Below, piece by piece: positions 10,381 to 50,500 of a DNA stretch of 64,000 bases (positions are counted from its first letter, which is position 1; every line of letters begins with the position of its first letter). Under the pieces are notes generated by a model that worked only from the letters and a program-made list of their open reading frames with translations, did not search any database and was not told the DNA's origin. Position numbers and translations under genes: made by a program. Where the stretch lies: assembly GCF_000275865.1 (NCBI RefSeq), contig NZ_CM001555.1:1261706-1325705 (forward strand), written 5' to 3'. Source of the DNA: Methanofollis liminatans DSM 4140 (GTDB taxonomy: Archaea; Halobacteriota; Methanomicrobia; Methanomicrobiales; Methanofollaceae).

Positions 10381-10396
10381 AAGGGTGAATGAAATT

Positions 10397-11707: not shown

Positions 11708-11784
11708 GTGAGCAGGAGGAGAGATATCTGGCACGAGACGCCTTTTCCCTGCTCCATCCGACAATACAGAGGGAACTGTACAGG

Positions 11785-29466: not shown

Positions 29467-29467
29467 T

Positions 29468-32224: not shown

Positions 32225-32743
32225 CTATGCGATCGCCCTGATAGTCTCCCTCAGTCTGGACGCGAACACCTCCATCGAATCCAGATCTTTGAACCCGGCA
32301 AGGACCACCTTCCCCGAAGAGAAAATCAGGGCGGTCCCCTTCTCCCCACGATAGATCACGCCCGGGAACTGCTCTGGCTCGTACTCCACGTGCTCCATCT
32401 GGAGGGCGACGACGAGGTGGGTCAGGGGAACCTTCATCCCTATATCGTCCATGCCGACGATGTTCTGAACCCGAGGCGGCGAGACGTGGGTGGGGTCGAT
32501 GATTGGGGAGAGGAGGGCGAGGAACTTCTGATAGGAATGATCGACATCATCAAGGGACTTCAGGCCGTAGATGATATATTTCCCACTCCGGTAGACCGTA
32601 GCCTTGCCGGTGGAGAGGAGGATGTAGGCACCGTGGTAGATCTCAGGATCGTACCTGTAGGTCTCCGGCCCGAGTTCTGGCAACCTCTGGAAGGGGACAG
32701 GCTGGCGGAGGTCGCCTGAACAGACGATATTGACGATCTTCAT
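32225..32743 (-). CDS. Divergent TATA-binding protein paralogue
   Basis: The 172-residue product is a full two-repeat TBP saddle. Repeat 2 (from about residue 90) is canonical: VQNIVGMDDIG, then EYEPEQFPGVIYRGEKGTAL, then IFSSGKVVLAGFKDLD. Repeat 1 has the same frame (IVNIVCSGDL, YDPEIYHGAYILLSTGKATV, YRSGKYIIYGLKSLD), but the two phenylalanines that kink DNA (EQF and LIF in ordinary TBPs) are tyrosines here (EIY and TVY). The acidic tail common in archaeal TBPs is absent. A housekeeping TBP would not be expected inside a defence operon, 20 bases behind a DUF365 gene, so this is likely an accessory TBP. It may drive transcription of the island or displace the host TBP; both are inference. Confidence 0.85.
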   Translation of the reverse strand: MKIVNIVCSGDLRQPVPFQRLPELGPETYRYDPEIYHGAYILLSTGKATVYRSGKYIIYGLKSLDDVDHSYQKFLALLSPIIDPTHVSPPRVQNIVGMDDIGMKVPLTHLVVALQMEHVEYEPEQFPGVIYRGEKGTALIFSSGKVVLAGFKDLDSMEVFASRLRETIRAIA

Positions 32744-32763: not shown

Positions 32764-33192
32764 CTATTCCCTCAGATACTTTCCGCCGACCGGAACAAAC
32801 CGGTCAGGTTTCTGTATTGTTTTATAGTGGCGGATCGCTTCGAGTTCTAGGGCAATCCAGGCTTTCTTTTTACCATCCCCCTTCCTGACCCGAACGCCCT
32901 GCCAGCGCTCTTGGTTTTGGACGTAGGCCTTCACCTCCTCCTGCGTCAGGAAGATCGCGTCGCCAAAGGTTTCAAAGAAGGTGAGAGGATCGTCGGTGAT
33001 GATGACCCCCTTTATCCTTGCCTCGCCGACATAGCCGGTGTCCTCGTGGGACTGGTAGAAGACCAACTTCATGCCGGGTTTGAGTTCCTTGAAGACGGTG
33101 GCCGGTTTGATGAAGACGGTCTTGCCCTCGTCGAAGAAGCGGGTCATGTAGGTTTTTGGTATGGGGAAGGTGACGCCAGTGATCGCTGTCAT
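32764..33192 (-). CDS. DUF365 (PUA/EVE-like) protein
   Basis: The 142-residue product matches archaeal DUF365: FPIPKTYMTRFFDEGKTVFI at the start, then LKPGMKLVFYQSHEDTGYVG, a GEARI strand and RYKTIQKP-like end (HYKTIQKPDRFVPVGGKY). The family has a PUA/ASCH-like fold and may bind modified nucleic acid. It lies in the tail of the BREX operon, 65 bases behind the DUF91 gene. The ribosome site is weak (GAGAGAG). Confidence 0.7.
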   Translation of the reverse strand: MTAITGVTFPIPKTYMTRFFDEGKTVFIKPATVFKELKPGMKLVFYQSHEDTGYVGEARIKGVIITDDPLTFFETFGDAIFLTQEEVKAYVQNQERWQGVRVRKGDGKKKAWIALELEAIRHYKTIQKPDRFVPVGGKYLRE

Positions 33193-33257: not shown

Positions 33258-34172
33258 TCAGTTTTCCTCATAACTCCGCAAGATGAGGGGCCTGGCCCTC
33301 TCCAGGTCGTCATCAGACCGGATCACAATCTCCAGGTCGCCGGTTCCCCAGTGACCGATCTTCCTCACGTCGCGGGTGAATCCTTCTTCGAGGGCAACCG
33401 TGTCGGGGTCGAGGCGGAGGTAGAGGAGCATGAGGCCGGACTGTGGGCGTATCTCGACACTGGTGAAGTTTTTGATCCGCCGAAAGGCCGCATACAGTTT
33501 GGTGACCTTCACCTGGACGTCGTCGCCAAGGGCGAGGCAGAACGCCTTGAGGGCTTCGTAGCGGTCGTGCAGATCGGTGTCTGAGAAGGCAAGCGATTCG
33601 CTGAAGGTCTTCGCCGCCGATTTTTTGCCGGGAGAGGAGGGTGCAGGGGCGGCGGTGTCGCCGTTTTGGGACGTTACGTTCACCAGGTCGAGAAGGAGGA
33701 GGGAACGGTCGAACTGTCGGTAGCGGATCAACTCTACGTTCCGGTTGATCTGCTGGACGGCGTAGATGTCATATTTCGTGAAGTCGCCAGCGATGCAGAG
33801 GAGCCTTGGCCCAGACCAGTCGATAATCTCGTCGGCCCTCGTGCCAATTTTTTTGAGGTAGAGGAGTTCGAACTCGGCCTTGTGGTCGAGGAGCCAGTCG
33901 AGGTAGTAGAGCCCCTGGTTGATGACGTTCTCGTTGAGCGCCCGCTTGTATTCGATGATGACCGGGAAACCGTTCTCGTCGATGCCGAGTGTGTCGATCC
34001 GGCCGCCGTGGGTTTTGCCGGTGACGTATTCGCTGGCCAGGAAGGTGACGCCCAGGAGGGGTTCGAGGTTCTGCTCCATGTAGGTCTGGAGGGATTTTTC
34101 CAGGGCGACGGAGGTTCCTTTGAGTTCTTCTGCCTGCGGGCCATCGATGCGGAAGATGCGGATGTCGCCCAT
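33258..34172 (-). CDS. DUF91/NucS-like nuclease domain fused to DUF5655
   Basis: The 304-residue protein has a PD-(D/E)XK core near residues 56-76, GRIDTLGIDENGFPVIIEYK, the D...ExK pattern of the DUF91/NucS group. From about residue 205 it carries a DUF5655 domain (AFRRIKNFTSVEIRPQSGL and LYLRLDPD). A Ser/Ala/Pro linker separates the two. Proteins of this pattern are common in archaeal and bacterial defence islands; whether the nuclease cuts DNA is not known. It starts four bases after the EVE stop. Confidence 0.75.
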   Translation of the reverse strand: MGDIRIFRIDGPQAEELKGTSVALEKSLQTYMEQNLEPLLGVTFLASEYVTGKTHGGRIDTLGIDENGFPVIIEYKRALNENVINQGLYYLDWLLDHKAEFELLYLKKIGTRADEIIDWSGPRLLCIAGDFTKYDIYAVQQINRNVELIRYRQFDRSLLLLDLVNVTSQNGDTAAPAPSSPGKKSAAKTFSESLAFSDTDLHDRYEALKAFCLALGDDVQVKVTKLYAAFRRIKNFTSVEIRPQSGLMLLYLRLDPDTVALEEGFTRDVRKIGHWGTGDLEIVIRSDDDLERARPLILRSYEEN

Positions 34173-34668: not shown

Positions 34669-36750
34669 TTATGTTTCGCTGATCGCCTTGAATGCCGCCT
34701 GCATCGGATCGGAATAGAACTCCACCCGAATTTTATCCAGCAGTTCCGGAGGTATGTTCCCGAAGTCGGCGGCATTGATCGTCGGGATGACGACCCTCTT
34801 TGCCCCGGCATCCATGGCGACTCTCATCCTATCGCCGAGATACTCGACTCTGGCAAGTATGCCATGGAGCGTCATCTCCCCGAGGATGATCAGTCCGCCT
34901 CCCAGGGGTTTGTTTACGATGGCCGAGAGGATGGCCACATAGAATGCAACCCCCATGTCTTCTGCTTCTTTTGCATGTCCCGGGCTCATGACTTGAATGT
35001 TCAGATCATAGCTGCCGATATCCTGTTCAAGCCCCAGTTTCTTACAGTTGAGTCTGAGATAGTTGTACGCCATCTGTACGGACTCTTTCAGTGCCTTGGA
35101 GGTCAACCCGACCACCCGGAGTCGTCCTGATCCAGGGATGGCTGCGACCTGTATTCTAAAGAGCATCACCCTCCCGAGGGTCGGGTCCCACCCGATGCTG
35201 AAGACGTCTCCTGGAGCGAGGGGGCCATCGGGTATCAGTTTTGTCACCCCCATCTCGGAGCACTCGGCGATATACTCTTCCCCGGTTTCTTTGTCCAGAT
35301 ACGAGAGGTTCACCCGCGAAAACTCGATCGGGTTCATCCGCTTCAACTGTTCTTTGACTCTCCTCCTCATTTCAAGGCCGGTGCTCACGTACTCAGCCAT
35401 CTCTTCCTTTGAGCAGGTGCCGTCCGGGTGGAGGAGTTTCATGAGGCCGGATACGGTCCGGACAACTGCCTTTCTGTCGCGCTGGCCGACATGGTTCCCG
35501 AATGAGAAGAATTCGTCATAGGTATCGGTATAGTTCAGGGGGCGGAGGCCGTTGTGGAAGATCTCGGCCATATAGTCGGCGACAAAACCCATGTGCTGGG
35601 TGAAATGGTCGGGTTTGAGTTTCAACATCTCCCACCCGGGAAGATAGGCGTGCCATCGGTCATGGAACGCCGTGTCGTTCCTGATCGTCTCTGGCAGGGG
35701 GGAGAAGAGGTGCGATGTCCTGGCAATCGATTCGACGTCCCCGTCGATGTTGCCATTGAAGACGATGCCTGCTTCGGCGGAGAGGGTTCCTTTGTCGTCG
35801 CCGCGTGAGAATGAACCCTGTTCCATGTAGCCCTTGAACATCTGCTTGTTTGTCTCGTTCTTGAAGTGCGATCCTGCCACTTCGTCGAATGCCACCAGAT
35901 CGTTCTTGAGCACCAGGCCGGGTTTGTCTTTCCGGTTTTTCCATCCGAAGAGGTCAGGCACCGAGCCCTGGCCTCCGGATAATAGAATGGCATAGGGGGA
36001 GATTTCACGATATACAAAGGATTTTCCTGTTTCACGGGGTCCCAGTTCGATGAGGTTGTAATTTTTCTCGACCATGGGGATGAGCCTGAGAAGGATGAGC
36101 AGTTTCACCCGCCATGTAAGGTCGGGATGCGTTGGTTCGTATCCTATCGACCTCAGCAGGATGTCCACCCATTCCTCCCGCGTGAACTGGCGGCGGGCCT
36201 CGATCCATTCGTCCATTCTGGCGCTGGCGATCTGGATGGGTTTCATGTTGGCGATGACGAAGGGACGGGTGACATTGCCGTGCACGATGTTTTCGTCATA
36301 GACGAGTTCGATGTTGGACCAGACGCCGCCGGTCAGCACACGCTCATATTTCTCGACGAAATCTTCTTCGATGTGTACCTTGTCAAGACCCGAGGTCGCA
36401 AGGTGTGCCCAGTACTTCCCTCCCTGGTCTTTTTCATCGAATGTGACCGTCACCAGGTCGATGATCTTCATCGATCCCGATCTCTTCAGCCGCGCCTTGA
36501 TCAGTTCTCCCTGGTCGGCCCTGACGACCCGTTCAGCAATGGCGCCTTTGACGAGCTGGAGACCTTCGTTGACTCCTTTCTCATCTGTTGTGGAACAGTA
36601 TTTTCCCAGGAGGTACTCCAGGACGTACACGGGGATGGAAAAGCCCACTTTTAATTTGTGGACGAGATCCTTTCTGACGACCCTGCCGGGGAATGCGGCG
36701 ACGAGTTTCCTGTCGAGATCGTCGAGTTCGAAGTGTTCACCAGAATTCAT
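34669..36750 (-). CDS. brxL: BrxL, AAA+ Lon-like BREX protein
   Basis: The 693-residue product matches BrxL of type 1 BREX: FELDDLDRKLVAAFPGRVVR at the start, Walker A LGPRETGKSFVYREI (about residue 237), Walker B LVAFDEVAGSHF (about 285), and NGNIDGDVESI. The C-terminal domain (from about 570) has the Lon protease fold (GGGLIILGEMTLHGILARVE). The Lon catalytic serine and lysine are not seen: the serine region reads EDMGVAFYV, and the lysine position in YLGDRMRVAMDAG is not Lys. It should thus be a DNA-acting AAA+ ring rather than a protease. It starts 14 bases inside the pglZ end, behind AAGGTGG. Confidence 0.92.
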   Translation of the reverse strand: MNSGEHFELDDLDRKLVAAFPGRVVRKDLVHKLKVGFSIPVYVLEYLLGKYCSTTDEKGVNEGLQLVKGAIAERVVRADQGELIKARLKRSGSMKIIDLVTVTFDEKDQGGKYWAHLATSGLDKVHIEEDFVEKYERVLTGGVWSNIELVYDENIVHGNVTRPFVIANMKPIQIASARMDEWIEARRQFTREEWVDILLRSIGYEPTHPDLTWRVKLLILLRLIPMVEKNYNLIELGPRETGKSFVYREISPYAILLSGGQGSVPDLFGWKNRKDKPGLVLKNDLVAFDEVAGSHFKNETNKQMFKGYMEQGSFSRGDDKGTLSAEAGIVFNGNIDGDVESIARTSHLFSPLPETIRNDTAFHDRWHAYLPGWEMLKLKPDHFTQHMGFVADYMAEIFHNGLRPLNYTDTYDEFFSFGNHVGQRDRKAVVRTVSGLMKLLHPDGTCSKEEMAEYVSTGLEMRRRVKEQLKRMNPIEFSRVNLSYLDKETGEEYIAECSEMGVTKLIPDGPLAPGDVFSIGWDPTLGRVMLFRIQVAAIPGSGRLRVVGLTSKALKESVQMAYNYLRLNCKKLGLEQDIGSYDLNIQVMSPGHAKEAEDMGVAFYVAILSAIVNKPLGGGLIILGEMTLHGILARVEYLGDRMRVAMDAGAKRVVIPTINAADFGNIPPELLDKIRVEFYSDPMQAAFKAISET

Positions 36751-39232
36751 CTATTTCCACCTTGAGTTCAACCTCTTCTCTGGCCAGTATTTCTTCGTCG
36801 TCCGCATCCTGTACGACCACAACGAGTTTCGATCCAAAGGGGGGTGCAGATGAGGCATCTACCCGAGAGAGCGCGATTGTCTGGGCCCCGCCGGCGGGTT
36901 CGATGGTCACAGCGTTATCATGGCGGAAAATAACCTTTCCGGTTTGGAGGTCTTTGATTTTCACCAGCACTTTCCGCGATAGCAGATTGGAGTCGGCGCC
37001 GATGAGTTTCTGCTGGCCTCCTGCCCCTGGCTCGACCTGTACCCTCGGCATTTCGCTTGTGATCTGTCCGACCGGTTTGAGGACGGCGTTCACCTTCTTT
37101 GCCTTCTGGGGCCAGTGGACCAGGACGACGGGGATGATGAGTTCCTGCAGGGTTGCTCCGCCGTGGAAGAAGCCGAGGCCCCCGTATGTCTTGAAGGCGT
37201 TGATGCTTCTCGGGACCATGGCGTTCAGGTCGGAGGAGGGGACAGGGAGGGCGAGGGCGGTCTTATGGGAGAGGGCCCGGCCCACCACGGCGCGGCGTGA
37301 TGTCCAGAGGCGTTCTCCTTCTGGTTTGCTCTCTTCGATCTCGTCGGGTTCGGGTTGCCAGTGGAAGAATCCGTGGTCGGTGACGATGATGATCTGTGAG
37401 TAGCCGGCATCCCTGAGTTTTCGAAGGGCGGTTGTGTAGCGGTCGAGGCTGTCCCCGGCGCCGTCCAGTTTGAGGTTTCCGTCATGGCCGGCGGTGTCGA
37501 ACTCTGCGCCTTCGACGACAAGAAGCGGCGATGAGGAGGTTGCCTTCTTCATCTTCCTGCCGTCGATGATCTCTTCGATGGAGAGGAATGTGGTGACGCC
37601 CATGGCGTCCCTGAACCAGTTCCGCCATTGTTCGGCAATGGCGAGGTTGCCTGATTCTCCTGCGGTGACAGAGAAGGTTTTCTGGTCTGGAGAGAGGTCC
37701 ACGCGGAGCGTGCGGGAGTCGACCGGGAGGGCGAAGGGTTTTCCGATGGGGGTGATGCTGGGCACCGGCGCCCGTGCGATTGCGACCTCTGCCCGTTGTT
37801 CGGGTTCGCCTTCGTTGATCTTTTCGGCGAGCCGGTGGCCGAGATCGAGGCGGAAGGCGTCGAGGAAGATGTAGGCTGTTCTGGAGGGGTTGCCGTCCAG
37901 GATGGAGAGGGCACGTTCTCCTGCTGTCGGGAGGGCTGCAAGGGCGGTCTGGTCGATTTCGAGGAGGTCTGAGAACGTTCTGCCGATGCGGTCGATGGTT
38001 CTGAGGTAGTGGCGCCTGAGCGATCCCCTGACGGTCCTGAGCACCTCGGGGAGGGAGGGGGTTTCGGTGAAGAGGATTTCTCCGGCCACGTCCAGGGTCC
38101 AGCCGCCGCCGGCGTACCATGCGATGGCGTCGCCGGCGCGGGTCCAGGTCTTTTCGACGCCTGCGTGCATGACGAGGGGGTGGGCGACGCCGGCGAGTGA
38201 GGAGAGGTGCCGCCAGCCGACGCTGTCGGTGGCAATGCTCCCCCAGAAGCGGGCTTCGCGCTCCTGGAAGGTGGGGAGGGCGCTGTCAAGTTCTTTTGCG
38301 AGGGCCTCGACGTCGCCGATCGCGGTGAGGCGGTCCAGGTATTTTTTGAGGATGGCCTCTTCGACGGCCCGCGAACCTGCCGATGCAGGGGGCGTTGCGA
38401 GCCTTTCAGCCCAGGGGCCGAGGGAGGTGATGGCGTCCGCCTTCTTTACGGCACGCTCGAAGGAGGGGATATAGGTGATGTTCTCCTCCCACTGCCTGAG
38501 CAGGGCGAGGGCGTGTTCGCGCGGCAGGCCCGGCGGGATGATGCGGTTCTTTTCCGCCGGGGGTGAGTGGGGGGAGGCCTCGGCGGCCTCGGTGCAGAGG
38601 AGGACGGCGGTCGCCTCCCGTCGCCAGGTCTCCTCGTCCATCTGTTCGGGGTCGGGGAGGCCGAAGTCCTCTCTGGCGCGGCGGGCGAAGATCTCGAACC
38701 TGCTCTCTGACCTGAGCCGGTCGAATTCGCCGGTGCTGCCGGCGAGGACGTCCAGGATCTTCCGGTCGTTGACGAGTTCGCCTTTTGCCGAGCCGGCGGT
38801 GAAGTCTTTCCAGTCGGCCCGCGGGCTGTCGAACCGCTCGTTGACGTAGGCGGGGAGGAGGGGGATGAGTTCTTCCTCCCGGTCGCCGGGGATCTGCACC
38901 CCGTAGTCACGGAGGGCGGAGACCAGGCGGGTCTCCCAGACATGGTCGGCCTCGGGCTCGAAGACCCTGAACCAGGTGATCTCCTCCTCGGAGCGGGGAA
39001 GCCAGACGATCCGGCTCGTTCTCGGCCGGGTTGCGAAGCGGTTTCTGAGGGCGAGTTCGTGCTCGTCGGGGTCGGCCCAGAGTTCCAGGCCGTCGGCTTC
39101 GGCGGTCTTCTTCAGGAGGTCGAGCCATTCCCGGCGGGGGTCGCACCAGAGGATCCAGCCGTTGTGCTTCTGGAGGTGGGGGCGGATCCTGGAGGTGAGC
39201 CAGGCGTGGAAACTGGTGGGGGGTTCGGTCAT
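36737..39232 (-). CDS. pglZ: PglZ, BREX phosphatase-fold protein
   Basis: The 831-residue product is PglZ, the hallmark of all BREX systems. The alkaline-phosphatase-like core is visible: AYIFLDAFRLDLGHRL near residue 455, the SITPIGKPFALP block, and IIIVTDHGFFHW near residue 610. The N-terminal half is the long type 1 form. A strong ribosome site (AAGGAGGAG) precedes the ATG, 12 bases after the dGTPase stop. It is GC-rich like brxC and the flanks of pglX, unlike the AT-richer genes inserted just upstream. Confidence 0.92.
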   Translation of the reverse strand: MTEPPTSFHAWLTSRIRPHLQKHNGWILWCDPRREWLDLLKKTAEADGLELWADPDEHELALRNRFATRPRTSRIVWLPRSEEEITWFRVFEPEADHVWETRLVSALRDYGVQIPGDREEELIPLLPAYVNERFDSPRADWKDFTAGSAKGELVNDRKILDVLAGSTGEFDRLRSESRFEIFARRAREDFGLPDPEQMDEETWRREATAVLLCTEAAEASPHSPPAEKNRIIPPGLPREHALALLRQWEENITYIPSFERAVKKADAITSLGPWAERLATPPASAGSRAVEEAILKKYLDRLTAIGDVEALAKELDSALPTFQEREARFWGSIATDSVGWRHLSSLAGVAHPLVMHAGVEKTWTRAGDAIAWYAGGGWTLDVAGEILFTETPSLPEVLRTVRGSLRRHYLRTIDRIGRTFSDLLEIDQTALAALPTAGERALSILDGNPSRTAYIFLDAFRLDLGHRLAEKINEGEPEQRAEVAIARAPVPSITPIGKPFALPVDSRTLRVDLSPDQKTFSVTAGESGNLAIAEQWRNWFRDAMGVTTFLSIEEIIDGRKMKKATSSSPLLVVEGAEFDTAGHDGNLKLDGAGDSLDRYTTALRKLRDAGYSQIIIVTDHGFFHWQPEPDEIEESKPEGERLWTSRRAVVGRALSHKTALALPVPSSDLNAMVPRSINAFKTYGGLGFFHGGATLQELIIPVVLVHWPQKAKKVNAVLKPVGQITSEMPRVQVEPGAGGQQKLIGADSNLLSRKVLVKIKDLQTGKVIFRHDNAVTIEPAGGAQTIALSRVDASSAPPFGSKLVVVVQDADDEEILAREEVELKVEIDEFW

Positions 39233-39244
39233 TCTCTCTCCTCC

Positions 39245-40657
39245 TTAAGCACCTGTATCCTCTTCAAGGTACAGTTTCTTGTACTCGGTGAAGGCATAGA
39301 GATCGGTCATCGATGCGATATAGTCGCTTAATACACGCAAGAATTTCGGGTCTGATATTATTTTATGCCGGCATTCTTCGAATTCCCGGTCATTGAGATA
39401 TCTGATCGTTTCATGGTGGAGGTCCAGGTTTTTCAGATATTTTTTTACCTCCGGGACTTCACAGACCGCCGTGTACTTCTTCAAGACGCTGTCGGGCAGC
39501 TGTTTCGGGTTGGTCAGATATGCCTTGATGATCTGGCGCAGGATAAACTTGGCTTTCCCATTTTCACGGTGAATTTTGTAGTTGTTAATGATAAACCGTT
39601 CCTGCAGATCTTTGAGCCGTGCGAATAAAATATTCTTTTCAAGAATTGTTTCACTGGCGAGATCTTCTGTGATCGGATAATATTCTGGTTCTGGATATGG
39701 GAGTTTCGCTTTCCTTTTTAAATAATTCTCCATGTTTTGTTTTATTGTTTCGACGGACTCAATAACGATAAGACTAATAATCCAGCTGGTAAATTCTTTG
39801 AAATAGTGCGTGTCAATCCAGGGTTTGCAATGGTCTGATTTTTTGATGAAGGGTTGGTCTTCAATTCCTTTCAAGAGACCTTGATCAATTAACTCACCGA
39901 TGAGTTCCAGAATCAGTTTTTTGCTATTATAGTCTCCTTCAATCGCGTCCTCGATGTCATGGCAGACCTGCGCAATTTCATCGGACAGACTGATAATCTG
40001 CCCCTCTATCGAAGCGGAGAATGGTTGCTCGAAGTGCAGTTCCGGCAGGTTGGTAATCGTTTCATACTGGATAAAATCTGGTTCTTCCTTAAAGCACAAT
40101 TTTGAATGTTTTAAGATGCCCTCAAGGACGGGATAACTGATGTTCAATCCAGAAAATGAGCAATATCCGTTTTCAACATCCATCAGCACTCTGACGCTCT
40201 GGTAGTTGTGCTTGAACCCGATGCCAACCTTTTCGGGATCTATGTTGAATTTGTTCAGGACTTTGCGCTCGTCCTGCCCTGTTAAAAGTTCATGGATAAC
40301 ATATTCGCCAATATGGCCGAAGGGGGTATGGCCGACATCGTGCCCCAGTGCAATCGCCTCGGTGAGGTCTTCGTTCACACCGACCTGACGTGCGATTGTC
40401 CGGGCGATCTGCGTTACCTCAAGGGTGTGTGTCAGCCGTGTTCTGATGTGCTCATTCATCGTTCCGGTGAAGCAGACCTGCGTCTTGTGCATCAGTCTTC
40501 TGAAGGACTTGCAATAGAGGATCCTGTCTTTATCATGCTGGAACGGGCTCCGCTCATCCTGAGAATGGAGTGTAGGAAACTCTTTTTTCGGTTCTGTGAA
40601 CTTCCGTTTCACGCACTCAGAGTCGTTCCGGATGGCAAGGGGGTGGAGTTTTGCCAT
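39245..40657 (-). CDS. dGTPase-like deoxynucleotide triphosphohydrolase (HD domain)
   Basis: The 470-residue product has the HD-hydrolase metal sites of dNTP triphosphohydrolases: TRLTHTLEVTQIARTIARQV, then IALGHDVGHTPFGHIGE, and a distal Asp in ISLSDEIAQVCHDIEDA. DERSPFQHDKDRILYCKSFR at the start is typical of dGTPase. Such enzymes break dNTPs into nucleoside and triphosphate, and some stop phages by dNTP starvation. It sits between the RloC-like gene and pglZ and is AT-richer than pglZ, so it looks like cargo gained by the BREX locus. Several starts are possible; I use the ATG at 40657, which has GGATGGTGATG upstream, while the frame runs to a GTG at 40675. Confidence 0.88.
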   Translation of the reverse strand: MAKLHPLAIRNDSECVKRKFTEPKKEFPTLHSQDERSPFQHDKDRILYCKSFRRLMHKTQVCFTGTMNEHIRTRLTHTLEVTQIARTIARQVGVNEDLTEAIALGHDVGHTPFGHIGEYVIHELLTGQDERKVLNKFNIDPEKVGIGFKHNYQSVRVLMDVENGYCSFSGLNISYPVLEGILKHSKLCFKEEPDFIQYETITNLPELHFEQPFSASIEGQIISLSDEIAQVCHDIEDAIEGDYNSKKLILELIGELIDQGLLKGIEDQPFIKKSDHCKPWIDTHYFKEFTSWIISLIVIESVETIKQNMENYLKRKAKLPYPEPEYYPITEDLASETILEKNILFARLKDLQERFIINNYKIHRENGKAKFILRQIIKAYLTNPKQLPDSVLKKYTAVCEVPEVKKYLKNLDLHHETIRYLNDREFEECRHKIISDPKFLRVLSDYIASMTDLYAFTEYKKLYLEEDTGA

Positions 40658-40760
40658 CGTCATCACCATCCGCACGCAGACTGCTCTTTTTTCATGAATT
40701 TGCTGTTGTTCATTTGTGGTCTCTTCAGATTTTTGATATCGTAATAACTAGTGGCATCCA

Positions 40761-43160
40761 TCATTCACCCTTTTTATATCGGATTTTTTCGCATTTACAG
40801 GACCATAAATTGTCAATCTCACTAATTCTTCTAATAAATTCATTGCAATGTTCACAAAATACACCTTTCCGAAAACCAATTACTGCATCACAAAATTCCC
40901 GTGCTTCGCTTTCAGTCAAATTTGTTGCCCATGAGTTCCAGTGAGCACCTGCCCAGTTCCGCATGGTTCGTGTTTTTTCGATTGTATCAAGACATTTCTT
41001 GTTAGAGGAATAAAAACTGTTAAATTCTTTTGATTTTGAATAAAATGCATTCCAGAGGGGATCTATTGTATATTTACTTGAAAGACTAAATCGGACGCTA
41101 ACATTTAGATTGTTGCAGAGGTTCTGAAGAATTTCCTCCAGCACTCGACCTGCTTTTATCGCTTTATCCTGAGGGTTGGATTTTCCAGCGTTTTTTGATA
41201 TTAACCATTCATAATCATTCAGATGATCTCCGAATATCGGACCTGTATCAATATTCCAATCTGAAATTTTGTAATACTTTAACTTCTTACTCCTCATATG
41301 ACGTTTTGAAGCCTGTTTTAAATATTCAAACCATAGAAGATCATGTGTTGTAATTACAATTTGGTGATCGTTGAATTTTTCAAAGATCATTTCTGCTGTT
41401 TTTCGACGATGACCAGCATCTACACTTTGTAGTACATCATCCAACACAAGCAATGAAAGATTAGGATTTTGGTTATACTGGAACCTTCGAATCGCTAAAA
41501 ATATACAAAGCCCGAGTGAATCAACATGTCCCTCGCTATAGTGACCGCGGGGATCGTCTTCTGTCCCATAAAATTCGCTGATGATCTTTATACTTCCTGA
41601 TCCTCCATCTGGGAGCTCAAATGCTGGAGAGCCTATTGATTCGCCAGGGTGGATATACTGATAATATTCATTGGTCACTTTTCCTATCTCAGACATTAGA
41701 ATTTTAATTGCTTCTTTGCGGGCTTTCGTTGCATATTCAGATATTTGCGTTATTTGTTCGGAAACAACTTTAGTATTATTTTTTGTATTTATGGAGCCTT
41801 GAATAGTCGAATGATGAAGTAATACGGCTGCGATCGAATTTTTCAGGTCTATTAATTTTTTATATCGATCAATATCTGGTGATGAAGCGCATCTCTCATC
41901 AATCACTTCTTTCATTGAATGAATGATTGCATTTCCATCAAATTCGAGTAATCGAGCAAGTTCTTGTTCTATTTTTTCAGGCTCACTGATTTTACTATTA
42001 CTTGCTACTATCTCCTCAATTACCTTCTGAAAGGTATCATACCTGTCGATCAACGGTACTTTCAGCAGTTCATCCCAAGTTCTACGAGTTTTCTCCAAAA
42101 ATTTAGCATAATTTGAAATCGCCTGAAAAAAAAGATTATATTTTGCATTACAAATATTTTTAGATGCAATGATGGACTTATGTTCGTTAATTTTTTGTTG
42201 AACAAATTTCTGAATCTCATCTGCGTTTATAGGGGAGTTGCAGAGGGGGCATTGTTCGAGAGCATCTTCTTTTATCCAACGAAGGCCGTCCTGAAGTACT
42301 TTCTCATATAATTGTCCTTTTAATGTCCCAGATTCAATTTTAAATTCCTTAGAAGCACTGTAATACTCTTCTTCGGATCTTATAACTTCTGAATACGAAG
42401 GAGCATTGGCGAGTTCTTTGGAAAAATCAATGATACCTTGCCATTGAGAAATATTTTGAAAAGATCTCAAATCTGCATCGATAATCCCTACACATACCTC
42501 AAACTCCTCGAAATCTGTGACTTCCCTTATTCCGGCGTCCTTCAAGCAGATATTAAATTGTTCAATCAAGCACTCCTTTGTTATTGGGATTTTGGGGTCA
42601 ATTTTAAGGATTTTTCGAATTTCTTGTTTATTTTGAGATATTTTATCGTCTAATTCCTTCACCCCTTTCTCTAAATCTTTTTTATGATCGATCAACTTTT
42701 GTTCAAACGCCACATATCGATCAACATTTAGAAAACCTTCAATCGCCTTGTATCGCTGCGCTGGTTTTGCTTCAATAAAATCGAGGAGTATTCGACGTCG
42801 AAGGATGAATTTACTTTCTTGAGAGGCTTTCAAGAATTTTTGAACATCTTTAGGGAAAGACTCGGTACTTTTTCCAAGAGAGACCGTTTCATCCTTATTG
42901 CCGTCAGTTAGAATCATTTGAATTTCAGGATTTGAATCAGAGCGAATATGAGTCCCCTGCTTTTTCCATGAGAGCTCCTGAGCACCGATGTCAAGGGATG
43001 AGCACTTCCCCGTTAGCACTTTTTCAAGAGCATCGATATATGAACTCTTACCTGTGCCATTATCTCCACAGATTACTGCCCCACCTGTTCCAAATACTAC
43101 ATCCGGCCCATCAATGATCCCGCGACAATTCTTCACTTTCAGCCTCTTGAGTCGAAGCAT
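40761..43160 (-). CDS. RloC-like zinc-hook ATPase with C-terminal HEPN-like motif
   Basis: The 799-residue product is an SMC/RecF-type ATPase. Walker A is CGDNGTGKSSYIDAL (about residues 30-44), coiled coils follow, and a zinc hook CPLC sits near residue 303. The signature is YSEGHVDSLGLCIFLAIRR (about 543) and Walker B LSLLVLDDVLQSVD (about 568), with ITTHD after it. The last 130 residues carry RNWAGAH (about 735), the RxxxxxH pattern of HEPN RNases, then a zinc-ribbon-like end (CEHC and CKCEK). RloC joins a zinc-hook ATPase to a HEPN-type anticodon nuclease, so this may be an RloC relative; the RNase role is inferred. AGGAGGGT precedes the chosen ATG. It is AT-rich within a GC-rich BREX operon. 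Confidence 0.75.
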   Translation of the reverse strand: MLRLKRLKVKNCRGIIDGPDVVFGTGGAVICGDNGTGKSSYIDALEKVLTGKCSSLDIGAQELSWKKQGTHIRSDSNPEIQMILTDGNKDETVSLGKSTESFPKDVQKFLKASQESKFILRRRILLDFIEAKPAQRYKAIEGFLNVDRYVAFEQKLIDHKKDLEKGVKELDDKISQNKQEIRKILKIDPKIPITKECLIEQFNICLKDAGIREVTDFEEFEVCVGIIDADLRSFQNISQWQGIIDFSKELANAPSYSEVIRSEEEYYSASKEFKIESGTLKGQLYEKVLQDGLRWIKEDALEQCPLCNSPINADEIQKFVQQKINEHKSIIASKNICNAKYNLFFQAISNYAKFLEKTRRTWDELLKVPLIDRYDTFQKVIEEIVASNSKISEPEKIEQELARLLEFDGNAIIHSMKEVIDERCASSPDIDRYKKLIDLKNSIAAVLLHHSTIQGSINTKNNTKVVSEQITQISEYATKARKEAIKILMSEIGKVTNEYYQYIHPGESIGSPAFELPDGGSGSIKIISEFYGTEDDPRGHYSEGHVDSLGLCIFLAIRRFQYNQNPNLSLLVLDDVLQSVDAGHRRKTAEMIFEKFNDHQIVITTHDLLWFEYLKQASKRHMRSKKLKYYKISDWNIDTGPIFGDHLNDYEWLISKNAGKSNPQDKAIKAGRVLEEILQNLCNNLNVSVRFSLSSKYTIDPLWNAFYSKSKEFNSFYSSNKKCLDTIEKTRTMRNWAGAHWNSWATNLTESEAREFCDAVIGFRKGVFCEHCNEFIRRISEIDNLWSCKCEKIRYKKGE

Positions 43161-43374
43161 GGATACCCTCCTCAATCATCTTGGATAATGGTGTGATATC
43201 TTCCGGCACACCATCTTTGAGTAAATCAAGCATTTTATCCTTCCATTCTGGTGCAAGAGACTGATCCTGGTGAATAAGGCGAAGGAGTTCCTTCGCCGCG
43301 AGTGAATTGATATCTCTGAGATCTTCTATCGAGTATGACCTGCTCTCATCAGATGGGGTTTCATCATCACTCAT
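43111..43374 (-). CDS. 87-residue acidic partner of the RloC-like ATPase
   Basis: It starts at MSDDETPSDESRSYSIEDL behind GGAGGG, 17 bases after pglX, and ends 50 bases inside the ATPase gene, so the two are translated together. The N-terminus is acidic and probably disordered; the rest is helical (NSLAAKELLRLIHQD, PEWKDKMLDLLKDG). I do not recognise a family. Its coupling suggests that it binds or restrains the ATPase, perhaps as an antitoxin or sensor. A second ATG at 43380 is possible. Confidence 0.6.
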   Translation of the reverse strand: MSDDETPSDESRSYSIEDLRDINSLAAKELLRLIHQDQSLAPEWKDKMLDLLKDGVPEDITPLSKMIEEGIHASTQEAESEELSRDH

Positions 43375-43391: not shown

Positions 43392-46300
43392 TCACCACCA
43401 CCCGCACTTCGGCAGTTTCCCTTCCCTGCACCACCGGCGCTCGTCCGACCGCCACTCGGCCCGGTCGGAGACGGCCTTCTCCAGGTCCTTCTTTGCGATC
43501 ACGTCGGCCGCGAGCAGCCCGGCCTTCTGGAGGGGGACGACGTTCACCCGCACGCCGTCGTTGATGTCAGGGATGTAGCTCCGCTCCTGCCGCAGGAAGG
43601 CCTCCCTGTCGGCCGGGGCCGGGCGCGTGCCGTCGATGGAGCACCAGGAGTCGAGGGGCTCGCTCTTTGCGATCTTCTCCAGGGTCTTGCTCGAAAACCC
43701 GTTCTCCGCAACGTCGGAGAGGGTCGCCCCGAAGGTCTTCAGTTCGGCGATCAGCCCGTCGAGTTCGCGGAAGCGCCGCTCCTGCACCTCGGTTCGTGAG
43801 GCAGGGGGGATGCCCTCGATGCCCCGCATCTCGGTCTCGTAGCGCTGCCGCAGGGGGCCGACATACTGGTTCTTGATCTTGTGGAGGGTGTCCTCGTCGA
43901 GTTTGTGGTAGTAGGCCAGGCAGGCGAACGCCGGCTGCCGCTTCTTCGTGAACTTGCCGCTCTGCACCTGCCAGGCGATGGGGCGCTTCTTGAACTGCTG
44001 GGTGTGGTGCTTGAAGAACTCGGTGTGGAGCCAGTCTTCGAGACTCTTGCCCATCACCTCCTCGAACTCCCGCTCGATGGCGGCAGCCGAACCGCCGGGG
44101 AACTCCGCGGCGATCCGCCCCCTGACCCGCTCCAGCAGGGTCGCCTCCCCGGAACCCGGGGTGAGCGGGATGATCCCGTCGGCATCGGCCCAATCCGGAA
44201 CCGCTTCGCCGGCCTCGATCTGCTTCGGCCACCTATGGCCGAGCATGCGGAGGACCATCACGGTGAAGCGGTCCTCGGTGATCCGCCGCTCCTCCGGGAT
44301 GCACCGCCAGCACTCCTCCTCGATCCCCTCCTTCAGGAGCCAGTAGACGGAGATGGGGTGGACCTGTAACTTCTGGGAGAGCTCTTCAAGGAAGGTCTCG
44401 GCCGGGATCGGGATGTAGGCCCCGGCGACCGCCTCCTCCTCGCCGTCGCCAGAGGTGCTGTCGTCCTCGATCTCGATCTTCGCCCCCGGCCCGCCCTCGT
44501 AGAGGGTGCGGAGGTTCGCCTTCAGGGTGGCGAGGTCGTTGGGGGAGAGGTTCCGGCGCTCGTGTTCGGTGAGATCGTCGAGGACTTCCTGCGGGATCTC
44601 GGGGAGGCCGTCCGGGAGCGGGGGGAGGGCGTCGTAGGCGGCGATGAGGGGGTGCCACCCTGAAGGCAAACCTGTTTCTGTATAGATTTGATCTTTAATG
44701 TTCTGAAGATCTAGCACTCCTAATAACTTGGTCTCATTGAAGCCCTCAATGGTATGTAGTATAGCATCTAGATGATAATAGGCCCAATAGGAATTTAATG
44801 TGCTACTAGGATTAAATTTGACATCTCTAAGATCTTGTTCAACGTCTTCTGATTTACAGTAACAGATTAATTTAGATAACTTGTTGTCTAATGCGGTTTC
44901 GTTTGGGCAGATAGGGAGCTGCTTGACGTATCCTGTCTTAAAATGTAAATTAGGGCTTATTGCACGAAGCAATATTGTTACCAGATAGGTATTAAAATAT
45001 ATACCTAATGTATTTAGCTGCGTTCGCGTAATAAACACGCCAGGTCCTGTATCCGAAAAGATTGAATTTTTTAGCAAATACCGCGCACTAAAAGCACCAT
45101 TTGAAATATCGGAATACGTTAAGCCATCAGCGAAATATAACTCTTCATTCCTTACAAGCCAATCGGTATTTCCTTTCAGGTAGGGATATTTTTCAGAGAT
45201 TTGGGACTTAATCTTAGTACCTTTGTAATTATAGTCAACAATCCAATAATTGAATCCCATCCAGCGGGAGTATCCTCCACCTTTTGAATACATGAACCAA
45301 CGATTATTGTCAATCACTGCTTCCCATTGATATCGTACAAACCTAGAGTCATTTCTTGTTCCAAGCCCTTCGCTAGTAGTAATTTGATGACTTAATCGAT
45401 TGCTTGTGGATAAATGCAATAACAAAGGTTCGGGGAGCCAATAGATAAGTGAATAAAAGGGGATGTGAAGAAATAATTTTTGAAGTATGCGATAGGTCTG
45501 ATTATTGCCTCTATTTCGCAGTAATTCTGCTTTCTTTTCTGAGCAGCCTCCTGCAATAGCCCTAGTTGCTGTTAGATGGTGGTTCTCTTTTGGTCCACTG
45601 TTAGTTAAAGTAAAAAGAACGACACTTACAACCTCGCCTCCGATTTCTCCAAAAGCTTTCGGTCCAAGTTGGGCGATTGTTTCGATACTGGTCTGTCTAA
45701 TTAGGCCTGAAAATTCTTCCTTTTGCGCACTTTCCGTCCTTTTTTCAGTAATTGCTCGAAGGTTTTCATAACTTTGCAAAAATAACCAGGATTGTTGTGT
45801 GACCATAGCCACTTTGCCACTAAGTTTTGAAAGTTTCAGATTTCGGAGTATAAATGCTGCAAAAAGATCGCGTTTTCCTTTGTCATAATTGGTATCTAGG
45901 TATTTTTTCACCACCAATGACATGGTTCCTGATCCCATATACGGCGGATTCGCCGCCACTACATCGTATCGCTTCGACAGCAACTCAAACAGCCGAACAC
46001 CCTTCCCGGCGTTCTGCGAAAAGAAGGCGTTTACGAGATCCGCCACCTCCGCCTCTGCGGTGAAGTGGTCGGCGAGGCGCTCGACCACGCCGTCCTTCCA
46101 GGTCTCCCACTCCTCGTCGGTCGTCGGGGCGGCGAACTCTCCGGTGGAGAGCGTCGTCTGCCCGCCGAGACGGGTGCGGAGGCTGCGGAGTGCCCGCTCC
46201 ACCGGCTCCTCGATCTGGAGGAGGGAGCCGAGTTCGTCGGCATGGGCGAGGCCCTCGAAGATCGATTCGAGGGCCGGGGCGAGGGGGGCGTCTTCGGGGT

Positions 46301-47513
46301 GCTTGGCGAGGAAGGCCTGGAGGTGGTCCTTTCCCTTCGGCAGGCGGATGTTAGTGGCGATGATATTCTTCGGCGTGCCCGAGAAGTCGAAGACCCGCTC
46401 GGCCGCCTTCATCCAGAGGGCCGCACGGGCGATCTGCACCGCCCGCTCGTCGATATCGATCCCGTAGAGGTTGCGGGCGAGGATCTTCTTGCAGATCGTC
46501 TCCGGGTCGGTGTACTTCCCCTCGGCCTCGTACATCTGGTAGAAGAGGTCGAAGGCCTCGATCAGGAAGTGCCCCGAGCCGCAGGCCGGGTCCAGGAAGG
46601 TGATATTCTCCACGTTCTTCCTGCGCACCGGCGCCCGATCGGCGTCCTTCACGTAGTACTCCCAGCCCCCGGAGAGATCCGAGTCCGGGTACATCCCCAT
46701 CCAGGTCGCGCCCAGCGAGTTCTGGACCAGGAACTTCACCATATAGGGCTCGGTGTAGAGCTGCGTCGCCGGGATGATATCGGCACCCGCGATCTTCGCC
46801 TTCTTCGTCCTGACCTTCTCGAAGACCCGGTCCTTCTCCTCGGTGTTCCAGTACTGATACGCCCACCCGAGGGCATCCGGTGCCGCAAACACCTCGTCCG
46901 TCGCGGTGCCGGAGTTGTTCACCGCCTCCGTCCCCGAGAGGAGGGCGATGCACCGCTTCAGCGCCGCCACCGACGGCCGCAGCGCAACCCCGGCCGCCTT
47001 CGGGTCGAAGAGCAGCGGCAGGTGCTTTGCATGGAACGAAAACGCATCCTGGAGCATCGCAAAAAGCCCCCCGTCCTCGCCGGTGCAGACCTCCGGGTGG
47101 CGCTGCGCCAGCCGGTGGTGGGCAAGCGACCGCCCGCCATAGACCTCCTTCGTCGCCACCACACCATCGATGAGATCGCGGGCCTCCATGCACCTGAGCA
47201 CCAGCAGGCGGTTCGCCCAGGTGTACGCCGTCTCCCGCACAAACTCCTCGATCGCATCCCGCCGCGCGATCCCCGCCTCCTCCCGCAGGGCAAGATAGGC
47301 ATCGATCACCGCGCGGGCGTGCCGGTCCTCAGGGGAGCGGAACGGCACCTCACCGGCCGGAACCGGCTCCCGGTCCCACCAGACCCCCAGCGCATTCATC
47401 CGCTCTTCGAGATCGCCGCCATGCCAGTTCCCGTGCTCGTCGTACCTCCCCTCCAGCAGGTGCCTGAACTCGAGGACAAGCGGCTTGAGGATCTTCTTCT
47501 GCTCTGCCTCCAT
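43392..47513 (-). CDS. pglX: PglX, BREX adenine-specific DNA methyltransferase
   Basis: The 1373-residue product is the BREX type 1 methyltransferase. Motif I (FLDPACGSGHFLIEAF) lies near residue 305, NLYGIDIDERAVQIARAAL follows, and the catalytic NPPY (VVAANPPYMGSG) is near residue 518. It methylates one adenine of a short asymmetric site to mark host DNA. I chose the ATG at 47513, two bases after the brxC stop; the open frame extends much further but overlaps brxC. From about 45940 down to 44665 (residues about 525-950) the DNA is strikingly AT-rich, while both flanks are GC-rich. That part holds the target-recognition region, so recognition has probably been replaced by recombination. Confidence 0.93.
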   Translation of the reverse strand: MEAEQKKILKPLVLEFRHLLEGRYDEHGNWHGGDLEERMNALGVWWDREPVPAGEVPFRSPEDRHARAVIDAYLALREEAGIARRDAIEEFVRETAYTWANRLLVLRCMEARDLIDGVVATKEVYGGRSLAHHRLAQRHPEVCTGEDGGLFAMLQDAFSFHAKHLPLLFDPKAAGVALRPSVAALKRCIALLSGTEAVNNSGTATDEVFAAPDALGWAYQYWNTEEKDRVFEKVRTKKAKIAGADIIPATQLYTEPYMVKFLVQNSLGATWMGMYPDSDLSGGWEYYVKDADRAPVRRKNVENITFLDPACGSGHFLIEAFDLFYQMYEAEGKYTDPETICKKILARNLYGIDIDERAVQIARAALWMKAAERVFDFSGTPKNIIATNIRLPKGKDHLQAFLAKHPEDAPLAPALESIFEGLAHADELGSLLQIEEPVERALRSLRTRLGGQTTLSTGEFAAPTTDEEWETWKDGVVERLADHFTAEAEVADLVNAFFSQNAGKGVRLFELLSKRYDVVAANPPYMGSGTMSLVVKKYLDTNYDKGKRDLFAAFILRNLKLSKLSGKVAMVTQQSWLFLQSYENLRAITEKRTESAQKEEFSGLIRQTSIETIAQLGPKAFGEIGGEVVSVVLFTLTNSGPKENHHLTATRAIAGGCSEKKAELLRNRGNNQTYRILQKLFLHIPFYSLIYWLPEPLLLHLSTSNRLSHQITTSEGLGTRNDSRFVRYQWEAVIDNNRWFMYSKGGGYSRWMGFNYWIVDYNYKGTKIKSQISEKYPYLKGNTDWLVRNEELYFADGLTYSDISNGAFSARYLLKNSIFSDTGPGVFITRTQLNTLGIYFNTYLVTILLRAISPNLHFKTGYVKQLPICPNETALDNKLSKLICYCKSEDVEQDLRDVKFNPSSTLNSYWAYYHLDAILHTIEGFNETKLLGVLDLQNIKDQIYTETGLPSGWHPLIAAYDALPPLPDGLPEIPQEVLDDLTEHERRNLSPNDLATLKANLRTLYEGGPGAKIEIEDDSTSGDGEEEAVAGAYIPIPAETFLEELSQKLQVHPISVYWLLKEGIEEECWRCIPEERRITEDRFTVMVLRMLGHRWPKQIEAGEAVPDWADADGIIPLTPGSGEATLLERVRGRIAAEFPGGSAAAIEREFEEVMGKSLEDWLHTEFFKHHTQQFKKRPIAWQVQSGKFTKKRQPAFACLAYYHKLDEDTLHKIKNQYVGPLRQRYETEMRGIEGIPPASRTEVQERRFRELDGLIAELKTFGATLSDVAENGFSSKTLEKIAKSEPLDSWCSIDGTRPAPADREAFLRQERSYIPDINDGVRVNVVPLQKAGLLAADVIAKKDLEKAVSDRAEWRSDERRWCREGKLPKCGWW

Positions 47514-47515
47514 GG

Positions 47516-50500
47516 TTACTCGAACTCCACCATATCGTAGCCTTCGTTGATCTTCGCCCGCACACGGGCATCGATATCGTCCCTGAGGCGCTCCCACTCG
47601 GCAATGCTCCTGACGCGCTTCCCTGACACCAGGGACGTCAGGGAGAGGCGCACCTTCTGGCTGGGGACACTCACTCCTCCCTTCTCTATCGCCTTCTCCC
47701 GCTCGATCCTGGCGACCTCGGCATCGATCTTCATCTGCAGATCCGCCACCGCCTTCCCTGCACGCGACGGCAGGGTCGCCACCTGCGCCGGGATCGAACA
47801 CTCCTCGATCTCAGAGCGCAAATGCTCCAGAGGCGGCCTCCACTTCTCTGCAAGCCCGGCGTCCAGATCCCTCTCCGCAAGGTTCGTCGGCAGGGCGGCC
47901 AGACCCTCCTCCAGGACCTCCCGCGCCGACTCCTTCCAGCCGGCCACCAGCTCCTTCACCTCCAGCTCAGCCTGCTTCTGGGTGGCGAGCAGGCGTTTCC
48001 AGGCCTCCGGGTCGGTGAACGACGCCTTCTCCACCGCCGCATTCCAGGCCGACACCATCTCCCTGACACTGCTGCTCTCATCCGTATGGTAGGATACCGC
48101 TTCCATCTGCCCCTTCAGCGCCCGAAGACGCGTAAACGCATCCCCATTTTTCTCAACAAACGCGTCGGCAGCGCATATCGCGTCATGCCCGGCGGCAAAC
48201 CCCTCGCGGTTACCTGCAATCTCACGGACCCGGTGCACCGGGTTTGTCATCCCGGAAAGCGCCGTCCACGCCTCCTTCCCCTTCGTAAACGCAGCAGAAA
48301 GGGGCATCCCCGACCCCCTCGCCCAGAGTTCGACACGGTGCGCCCTCTCAATCAGCGCATCCGCAAGAGACCCCGCCGCTTCGGCAAGAGCCGCCGGCGT
48401 CTCCTCGATCCGGCGGCTCTTCGCAAGATTGATCAGCACGGACCTCACCTCGGTCAGCATCTCCGGCGGGATCGTCGTCTCCTCCAGCTCCAGCTCCGAC
48501 TTTTTGAAGTGCGACGACACCCGCATGGCATCCTGGAGATCCTGGTCGTCAGGGTTCGTGTACACCTTCTTGTTCAGGACCACCTTCACGCTGCCCGCCC
48601 TGGCCATCGCCGCGACACCCACGCGGACGGCATTGGGATCCCAGCCGAAAGGCGGCTCTTCAAAATAATCCAGCATCTCCTTCCCCAACGCCCTGCGGCC
48701 CTGCGTCTGCTCTCCGGCAAGGTACGTCCTGATCGCATCGATCAGAGGGCTCTGCGGATTGAGCGTCCCGGTCTGGTCATACAGTGCGAGCGCCTTCACA
48801 TCCGCCGAAACGCCCGTCTTCCCTGCCAGCACATCCCGGATCGCCTGCTGGTCATTGGAGATTCTCACCGGCACGCGGTCAAAGTTCGTATAAATCTTCG
48901 GCCAGAACTCGGCCATCACCGAGAGCAGGCCATCTCCCGCACTCTGGCTCGACGGCAGATCCAGCGTCCGTGAAGCGCCCCTGAAGACCACCGTACCCGA
49001 CCGGATCCCGGCCCTCAACCCATCGACAACCCTCTTCTGCAACTTCGGCAGATCGATGCCTTCCCGGTCCCTGGCCAGTTTCCGGGCGTCCTCGGATTTA
49101 TGGGGGTCCTGCTTCCACCGGTCGATCACATCCTTCATCGCAATATACCGGGTCAGGTCCTGCTCGAACTCGGGCACACGCCCCGAAAGGAAAAAGATCG
49201 TGTTCCGCTCATCAGAATGGAGGCTGTCAGACTGCAGATCCTGAACCGTCGCGCCCCCCACCCGCTCCAGAGGGGTGATCATCTTCAGCGTTACCGCACC
49301 CGACGTCCCGCCGACCCTCTTATGATCCACCTCCAGGGAAAACGAGAACTCCTGGCTCTTGAAACTCACCGTATTGGACCCGAGCCACTTCCGCCAGTTT
49401 GATTCGCTGATAAACAAACGGCCGAACTGCTCCTCGCGAATCCCCTGCCCCATCTGGGCCTCGACCGTGGTCACCTCATCCTCAAACGTCCGGCGCTCAC
49501 CGGTCAGGAACTCATACTCCTCACCGATCCTGGCGACAAGCCCGGCCTTCATCAACCGTTCAAGCTCAGGCCTGACACGCGCAATCGCATCAGAGAGGTC
49601 ATCATCCACGTCCCGAATGGTCAGGCGGGCGACATTATCGATCGTCCTCGGGATATACTCCAGTTCCCTGACAAGGAAAAGCACCTCTGCAACCGACGCC
49701 GTAAACCCGTTTGCATCAGGCACCACCTTCGAGATCCGTGAAATATCGGTCCGCACATCCGGGCTGACCTCGCCCTCCCCTGAGAGATTATGATAGATCT
49801 CATCGAAACGCACGAGCACACCGGGCTCCATCTCCAGGTACCTGACCCGGCCCGCACGCAGGACATCCTGCGTGATCGCCAGCAGCGTCCTGGTGGACCC
49901 GCTCATCTGCTCGCCCCGTCCACCCCGCGAACGGAGCGACTTCACAATATCAGGGATCAGGTGCACCTGATAGGGCAGGAAGGGATAATACGTGACAAAA
50001 GAATCCTCCGAACAATCCGGCAACACCTGGAGGGCGTTGGAGAGTTCGCCGATACCCTTCAGGTTTCCGCTCCCGCACCTCTCGTACAGGCTCTGCAAAA
50101 CCCGCCTACCCTCCGTTCGCTTCCTGAGCAGCCGGTTCTCAAGGACCTGCTCGATATTCTCCGTTGTGAGAGCCGGCTTGAACCTGAACCGCCCCTCGAT
50201 CTTTTTCATATCGCCGTCAAGGGCGCGGGCTTCCTTGTAAATCGCCCCCATATCCCCGTGCGTCGTGACAGCAACCCAGATCCGGCCCTGCCCCTTGAGC
50301 GCCGCCTCCTCGACAAACGCCTGCAGCCGCGCAAGACGGCCATTATTGTTCTCGATCCACTGCCCGGTCTCATCCATTACCCACATGAACCGTTGCGGCT
50401 TCCCTCTCTCCCTTTCCAGGCGCTCCAGGTCATCAAGGACGGTATCGACAAGGGTGGACACATTGATGATCGCACCGGCCTCGGCCTCGCTCAGCGCCTC

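Follow-up and report, generated by a model that had tools for sequence, protein, structure and literature searches.

The DNA analysed here, referred to as the window, is a stretch of 64,000 nucleotides from Methanofollis liminatans DSM 4140. It contains a BREX locus that is followed by a small cassette, the last gene of which encodes a paralogue of the TATA-box-binding protein (TBP), termed TBPd. The genes concerned are the following.

32225..32743, minus strand: TBPd, a TBP paralogue of 172 aa with a recoded repeat-1 DNA face (Y36, T49, Y51, I57), assigned by ORF, Pfam, alignment and fold model
32764..33192, minus strand: DUF365 gene, cassette partner 20 bp upstream of TBPd (Pfam PF04033, 1.6e-34); adjoins TBPd in most methanogen loci
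33258..34172, minus strand: NucS_C-like nuclease domain (weak match) plus DUF5655, optional cassette member, also in L041, L042, L043 and L072
34177..34629, minus strand: EVE-domain protein (predicted modified-base reader), first cassette gene (Pfam EVE, 3.2e-27); recurs in relatives
34669..36750, minus strand: BrxL (PADLOC, 3.6e-247)
36737..39232, minus strand: PglZ (BrxZ; PADLOC, 2.6e-28)
39245..40675, minus strand: HD-domain dGTPase-like protein (PADLOC dGTPase, 7.6e-71); syntenic in L070 of the Methanospirillum group
40761..43175, minus strand: AAA/SMC-like ATPase (domain matches)
43392..47801, minus strand: PglX (BrxX), predicted adenine-specific DNA methyltransferase with an NPPY motif (PADLOC, 2.9e-164)
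47516..51184, minus strand: BrxC-like ATPase (Pfam BREX_BrxC domains)
51181..51765, minus strand: BrxB position, assigned by its location between BrxA and BrxC
51747..52571, minus strand: BrxA (Pfam, 4.6e-26; PADLOC, 7e-21)
52832..55504, minus strand: helicase with C-terminal HEAT repeats, PbeA/BrxH-like (PADLOC, Pfam)

All of these genes lie on the minus strand, in the order helicase, BrxA, BrxB position, BrxC-like ATPase, PglX, AAA/SMC ATPase, HD dGTPase-like protein, PglZ, BrxL, EVE, nuclease, DUF365 and TBPd. The complete TBP co-directional with BREX that a preliminary description had reported was thus borne out, as an ORF located 20 bp behind the DUF365 gene. The annotated start of PglX is probably over-extended, and the ORF at the BrxB position has no family match in Pfam or PADLOC. 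The combination of an SNF2-type helicase with HEAT repeats (52832-55504) recalls the TBP remover Mot1, albeit with a different domain order. The greater part of the window forms a dense defence island. An AAA ATPase and DUF4435 pair (27874-30391), located upstream of the BREX region, matches AriA/AriB and represents a PARIS-like system, and homologues of SngA, SngB and SngC (8014-13905; PADLOC 5e-55, 2e-163 and 3e-221) are flanked by LmuB-like and UvrD/GajB-like genes.

A separate TBP lineage with a recoded first repeat

The TBPd reading frame is intact and matches the Pfam TBP family at 3.1e-31 across two repeats. When an AlphaFold2 model of moderate quality (pLDDT 76.6, pTM 0.70) was compared with the PDB, the only significant fold matches were TBPs, with TM values up to 0.83. 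According to both the Pfam match and the fold matches, two TBP repeats and the saddle fold are present. The protein scores under every NCBIfam TBP cut-off. Between relatives, dN/dS values of 0.13-0.25 indicate purifying selection.

Repeat 2 is canonical, as had been described before (VEYEPEQFPGVIYR...LIFSSGK), and retains the pair of DNA-kinking phenylalanines. This pair is absent from repeat 1, where the phenylalanines of FPG and LIF are replaced by Tyr36 and Tyr51. Both exchanges had been noticed previously, but they are merely part of a four-residue change. Over 63 TBPd sequences (yeast numbering) we found F99Y in 53, L114T in 56, F116Y in 58 and V122I in 56, and the Tyr/Tyr combination occurs in 11 of 11 methanogen rows and in most haloarchaeal members. 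Canonical TBPs are invariant at these positions wherever the column can be read (F99 in 13 of 24 rows, the other 11 being short; L114 and F116 in 23/24; V122 in 24/24). Nearly all 63 TBPd retain F190, L205, F207 and the stirrup residues E186 and E188 in repeat 2; the TFB-contacting stirrup EPEQFPG, likewise kept in nearly all of them, is invariant in 14 of 14 aligned methanogen sequences. Since the four residues of repeat 1 have changed jointly and repeat 2 is kept, it becomes clear that one half of the saddle has been recoded in a fixed way, the other half remaining untouched. We take F99, L114, F116 and V122 to be minor-groove residues, adopting numbering and roles from established TBP-TATA-TFIIB structures; L114 is the repeat-1 counterpart of L205, a position altered in the classical altered-specificity yeast TBP mutant. 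The arginine of YRSGK was dropped as a signature residue, as it is frequent in ordinary haloarchaeal TBPs. An acidic tail is absent, as reported earlier, but this is uninformative because the two canonical TBPs of the same genome lack one too.

The canonical TBPs cluster together in a phylogenetic tree (100/100), and so do the methanogen TBPd (100/100), which stand beside a haloarchaeal YHG group (95/87); the placement of long-branched second TBPd copies is uncertain. TBPd is a separate TBP lineage. The genome (2.48 Mb, one contig) encodes four TBPs, i.e. the window copy and three others.

C1:1927833 and C1:992375: canonical TBP genes
C1:2050928: sister TBPd, 76% identical to the window copy, in an EVE-nuclease-TBP cassette adjoining a divergent type I R-M operon

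The window TBPd is therefore not the sole TBP of the organism, and the further canonical TBP that a defence-specific paralogue would call for is present twice. The genome has one TFB gene, so that any of its TBPs must share that TFB.

Linkage to adenine-methyltransferase defence systems

Among 232 genomes of the class, TBPd is found in 16, with a patchy distribution within Methanomicrobiales. Five weaker matches in distant families (L074-L078, E about 1e-24) are not TBPd, being orthologues of the canonical TBP2. The recurrent gene order in methanogens is EVE, (nuclease), DUF365 and TBPd, with TBPd in last position, and this cassette is the mobile unit. Some methanogen loci lie on short contigs; in the remaining ones, TBPd neighbours BREX (the window, L044, L064, L066, L070, L073), type I R-M (L041, L071), type III R-M (L042), Hma plus a type I methyltransferase (L043) or a type IIG-like methyltransferase with a helicase (L063). 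It is inside or contiguous with BREX in the window, L070, L073 and the Haloarcula halophila plasmid L197; in L070 it is located within the operon, ahead of PglZ and BrxL. L041 and L043 have no DUF365 gene, and about 25 nt of its 3' end (GGKYLRE-stop) remain just upstream of TBPd, which is a sign of modular deletion. Between DUF365 and TBPd, an AAA ATPase and DUF4276 pair is inserted in L064 (6944-8771; HEC-01 by PADLOC) and in L067.

A tblastn search against plasmids revealed haloarchaeal operons in which the genes for a methyltransferase, a helicase and a TBP overlap; their helicase matches BrxHII (5e-171) and their methyltransferase DrmMI (4e-109). The TBPs of these operons share the repeat-1 signature of the methanogen TBPd. 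A repeat-1 profile search of 394 haloarchaeal genomes gave two-peaked scores: the TBPd peak comprises about 80 matches at 77-130 bits in about 60 genomes (about 15% of Halobacteria), and ordinary haloarchaeal TBPs score at most about 66 bits. The linkage test set 40 haloarchaeal TBPd loci, with score as the sole criterion of choice, against 20 loci of ordinary TBPs. An adenine-type methyltransferase lies within 4 kb of 35 of the 40 TBPd, against 2 of the 20 controls (Fisher p=5e-9). When the helicase partner of the operon is counted as well, 37 of the 40 loci are covered; two of the remaining three have a methyltransferase at 4.3-4.9 kb and the third lies on a 3-kb contig. These controls rule out a chance neighbourhood. 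In Haloarcula halophila, the annotated operon reads brxE, brxA, brxB, an unnamed gene, brxC, PglX (two ORFs), TATA-box-binding protein, PglZ and brxL.

TBPd thus accompanies BREX, type I, IIG and III R-M, Hma and the DrmMI/BrxHII-like operon, and its common partner is an adenine-methyltransferase defence system of several types, not BREX as such. Since most TBPd adjoin other methyltransferase systems, a BREX-specific component is ruled out. The proposal of a defence-specific TBP is well supported, because the genome also has canonical TBPs and the paralogue stays in defence loci in relatives; only the tie to BREX has to be given up. Near methyltransferase operons TBPd is the last gene or a divergent neighbour, and the divergent arrangement, seen in a subset of type I and IIG loci, is the usual layout of a regulator. 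In L158 and L159 a different TBPd subfamily occupies the same slot of the same methyltransferase-helicase operon, which argues against a tightly fitted subunit.

Several loci hold additional TBP-like genes. A second, more divergent TBP lies between methyltransferase and helicase in L142 (10178-10729), L238 (1174-1719) and L236 (4962-5492); those of L142 and L238 are devoid of the TFB-facing FPG/EPEQ stirrup of repeat 2. L164 (5777-6601) encodes, next to a type I R-M locus, a 274-aa protein with an N-terminal winged-helix-like region and a TBP domain, convergent with TBPd. Apparent decayed TBP-like frames between HsdM and TBPd in L150 and L155 suggest a repeated turnover of TBP copies. A scan of viral contigs for a viral origin of TBPd found no relative.

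Promoter elements and possible functions

The haloarchaeal methyltransferase-helicase-TBPd operons share a block, (AGTCT)AAGTAAAGACTATA, which is conserved in otherwise diverged DNA and lies about 46 nt ahead of the first start codon. The 14-mer AAGTAAAGACTATA occurs 19 times in the 394 genomes, 19/19 at the start of this one methyltransferase-helicase operon (upstream of the L120-L122 and L198-L232 operons), compared with 4 occurrences of the reversed control. Its core-promoter position and its G/C-containing, non-standard TATA-like sequence are as expected if one half-site has been recoded. The element cannot be attributed to TBPd, because the operons L233, L234 and L235 retain it after losing TBPd or most of it, the L159/L208 operon class has the same element with a different TBPd subfamily, and the 63-aa first ORF of the operon could be an alternative reader. 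Given this survival and the variable palindromic left arm of the block, we did not accept the 14-mer as proof of a TBPd site. The AbrB-like appearance of the 63-aa ORF was a by-eye impression and was discarded, as neither Pfam nor NCBIfam gave a match. Upstream of the methanogen cassettes no shared promoter motif rose above shuffles; a sigma-70-type promoter scan was set aside as irrelevant to archaea. Of the functions suggested in the preliminary description, recognition of its own promoters is plausible for TBPd, whereas nothing was found in support of a blocking of viral promoters in particular.

Going beyond sequence, linkage and selection, we infer a dedicated initiation factor that, together with the host TFB, governs the linked system from promoters in which one half of the TATA element is non-standard, and would be an archaeal counterpart to the C proteins of R-M systems; we give this reading an even chance. 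TBPd would still grip and bend DNA, its second repeat contacting the TFB-proximal TATA half and its recoded first repeat the non-standard half. Once bound, it would recruit the single host TFB and thereby serve the linked system as a private initiation factor, taking the place of the bacterial C proteins or BrxR. With such a factor, the system could be expressed in whichever archaeal host it enters, with a delay after entry and without reliance on the canonical TBP. The EVE and DUF365 partners of the methanogen cassettes might feed the DNA-modification state into this control, which is the weakest step. This scenario is favoured by the joint recoding of a single half-site, the preserved TFB stirrup, a gene position that is either terminal or divergent, the diversity of the systems and the swapping of subfamilies, and the operon-specific 14-mer, the winged-helix-TBP fusion of L164 and the single TFB lend it further support. 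The gene layout is compatible with TBPd regulating a linked R-M system, and as the partner systems are mechanistically different, their common need would be regulated expression, not one enzyme complex. Against it stand the persistence of the 14-mer without TBPd, the alternative reader, the lack of a motif at the methanogen cassettes and the loss of the stirrup in the second copies of L142 and L238. On balance, the data suggest that TBPd-linked systems bring their own transcription factor. If so, binding should depend on TFB, the TATA half should be changed, and GAAGTAAAGACTATA should be preferred over a consensus TATA.

Parts of the gene layout would fit a structural role as well. The stop and start codons of TBPd overlap those of the SNF2/BrxHII-like helicase or the methyltransferase in some operons, TBPd is embedded in BREX core operons between PglX or the dGTPase and PglZ, two TBPd flank the helicase in some operons, the second without the TFB stirrup, and some methanogen cassettes include a nuclease. 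It is conceivable, though we consider it rather unlikely, that TBPd is the DNA-recognition or bending subunit of a defence machine, which kinks or marks the target for methyltransferase, helicase or nuclease and has no part in transcription. A basal factor would then have become the recognition subunit for one of these enzymes or for PglZ, possibly with EVE and DUF365 reading base modification at its side, a variant that we regard with the same reserve. Against such a subunit speak the very different enzyme systems with which TBPd occurs, its exchange between subfamilies, its sometimes divergent or hundreds of bp distant position, and its nearly invariant TFB-facing stirrup. An intact stirrup next to an altered DNA face could also be read as the mark of an inhibitor that titrates TFB or poisons initiation upon infection and stops both host and viral transcription. 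Sulfolobus TFS4, a virus-induced paralogue of a basal factor that inhibits RNAP (PMC5715097), provides a precedent, and the degraded or truncated state of some island TBPd is as expected of costly genes. The DNA-facing substitutions, however, are fixed and conserved rather than decayed, the constant methyltransferase linkage would be left unexplained, and there is no toxin-antitoxin-like layout, which makes an inhibitor improbable.

The adenine-type methyltransferase common to all TBPd contexts, together with the EVE/PUA-like modified-base readers of the methanogen cassettes, brings to mind a compatibility factor that permits transcription from promoters with m6A in or near their TATA elements. 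We doubt this strongly: m6A carries its methyl group in the major groove whereas the minor groove is what TBP reads, methyltransferase sites mostly fall outside TATA boxes, and the sites of type IIG, type I and BREX enzymes differ. That TBPd is a mere passenger, hitch-hiking in mobile islands without any defence role, is very hard to believe. Ordinary haloarchaeal TBP paralogues are indeed common on plasmids, but the excess of neighbouring methyltransferases over the ordinary-TBP controls, the occurrence of this linkage in two archaeal classes, the conserved repeat-1 signature and the purifying selection all speak against it. The dedicated initiation factor is hence the reading that we favour.

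Significance and relation to known systems

No literature joining a TATA-box-binding protein with BREX was found, a survey of BREX diversity does not mention TBP, and PADLOC has no TBP model that matches TBPd. The haloarchaeal members are annotated by NCBI as plain TATA-box-binding proteins. It is well known that haloarchaea possess several TBPs. A TBP lineage that is linked to methyltransferase defence and has a recoded half-site thus appears to be undescribed in the searchable literature. Among the components of archaeal and eukaryotic transcription, TBP is counted with the most conserved. A lineage with the same substitutions in one half of its DNA grip that, in two archaeal classes, is retained almost exclusively next to antiviral systems which methylate DNA would represent a novel means of regulating or building immunity. 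Should TBPd act at promoters, then mobile defence systems bring a private initiation factor with them, and there is a second TATA code that can be read out directly. TBPd also gives a starting point for explaining why multiple TBPs are maintained in many archaea, and as a marker gene it can point to new archaeal defence loci.

Eukaryotic TBP-related factors (TRF2/TLP and others) have altered DNA-contact residues, keep the TFIIB contact and serve different promoters. TBPd is likewise a TBP paralogue with changed DNA contacts that coexists with a canonical TBP in one cell, and is classed here as a TBP-related factor; it differs in its separate origin and its archaeal defence loci. With the canonical archaeal TBP (PF00352; Pyrococcus woesei 1AIS, M. 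jannaschii 2Z8U) it shares the two-repeat saddle, the Asn and Val DNA contacts, repeat 2 and the TFB stirrup. Unlike that protein, it has Tyr, Tyr and Thr in place of the Phe pair and Leu of repeat 1, and it is accessory, mobile and defence-linked.

The EVE census of Bell, Wolf and Koonin 2020 (PMC7641849) placed stand-alone EVE proteins beside archaeal methyltransferase-helicase restriction systems, as in the TBPd cassette; a search of its text retrieved no TBP gene partner, NucS or DUF5655, TBP being mentioned only as a fold comparison for DUF1831. A TBP-like N-terminal fold has been described in the antiphage protein RnlA (RNase LS; PMC3710099), but this is a distant nucleic-acid-binding domain of the RNase-HIII type and not a factor of the TBP family. 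Since the BREX-specific linkage failed, TBPd is not a BREX component either. BrxR, the small regulator encoded with BREX, is of the HTH/WYL type, whereas TBPd is a paralogue of a basal factor. The C proteins of R-M systems (PMC3874152) are, like TBPd, small regulators encoded together with their system, but they are HTH-type proteins. As TBPd has a TBP fold and no HTH, it is not a C protein, yet it may work like one.
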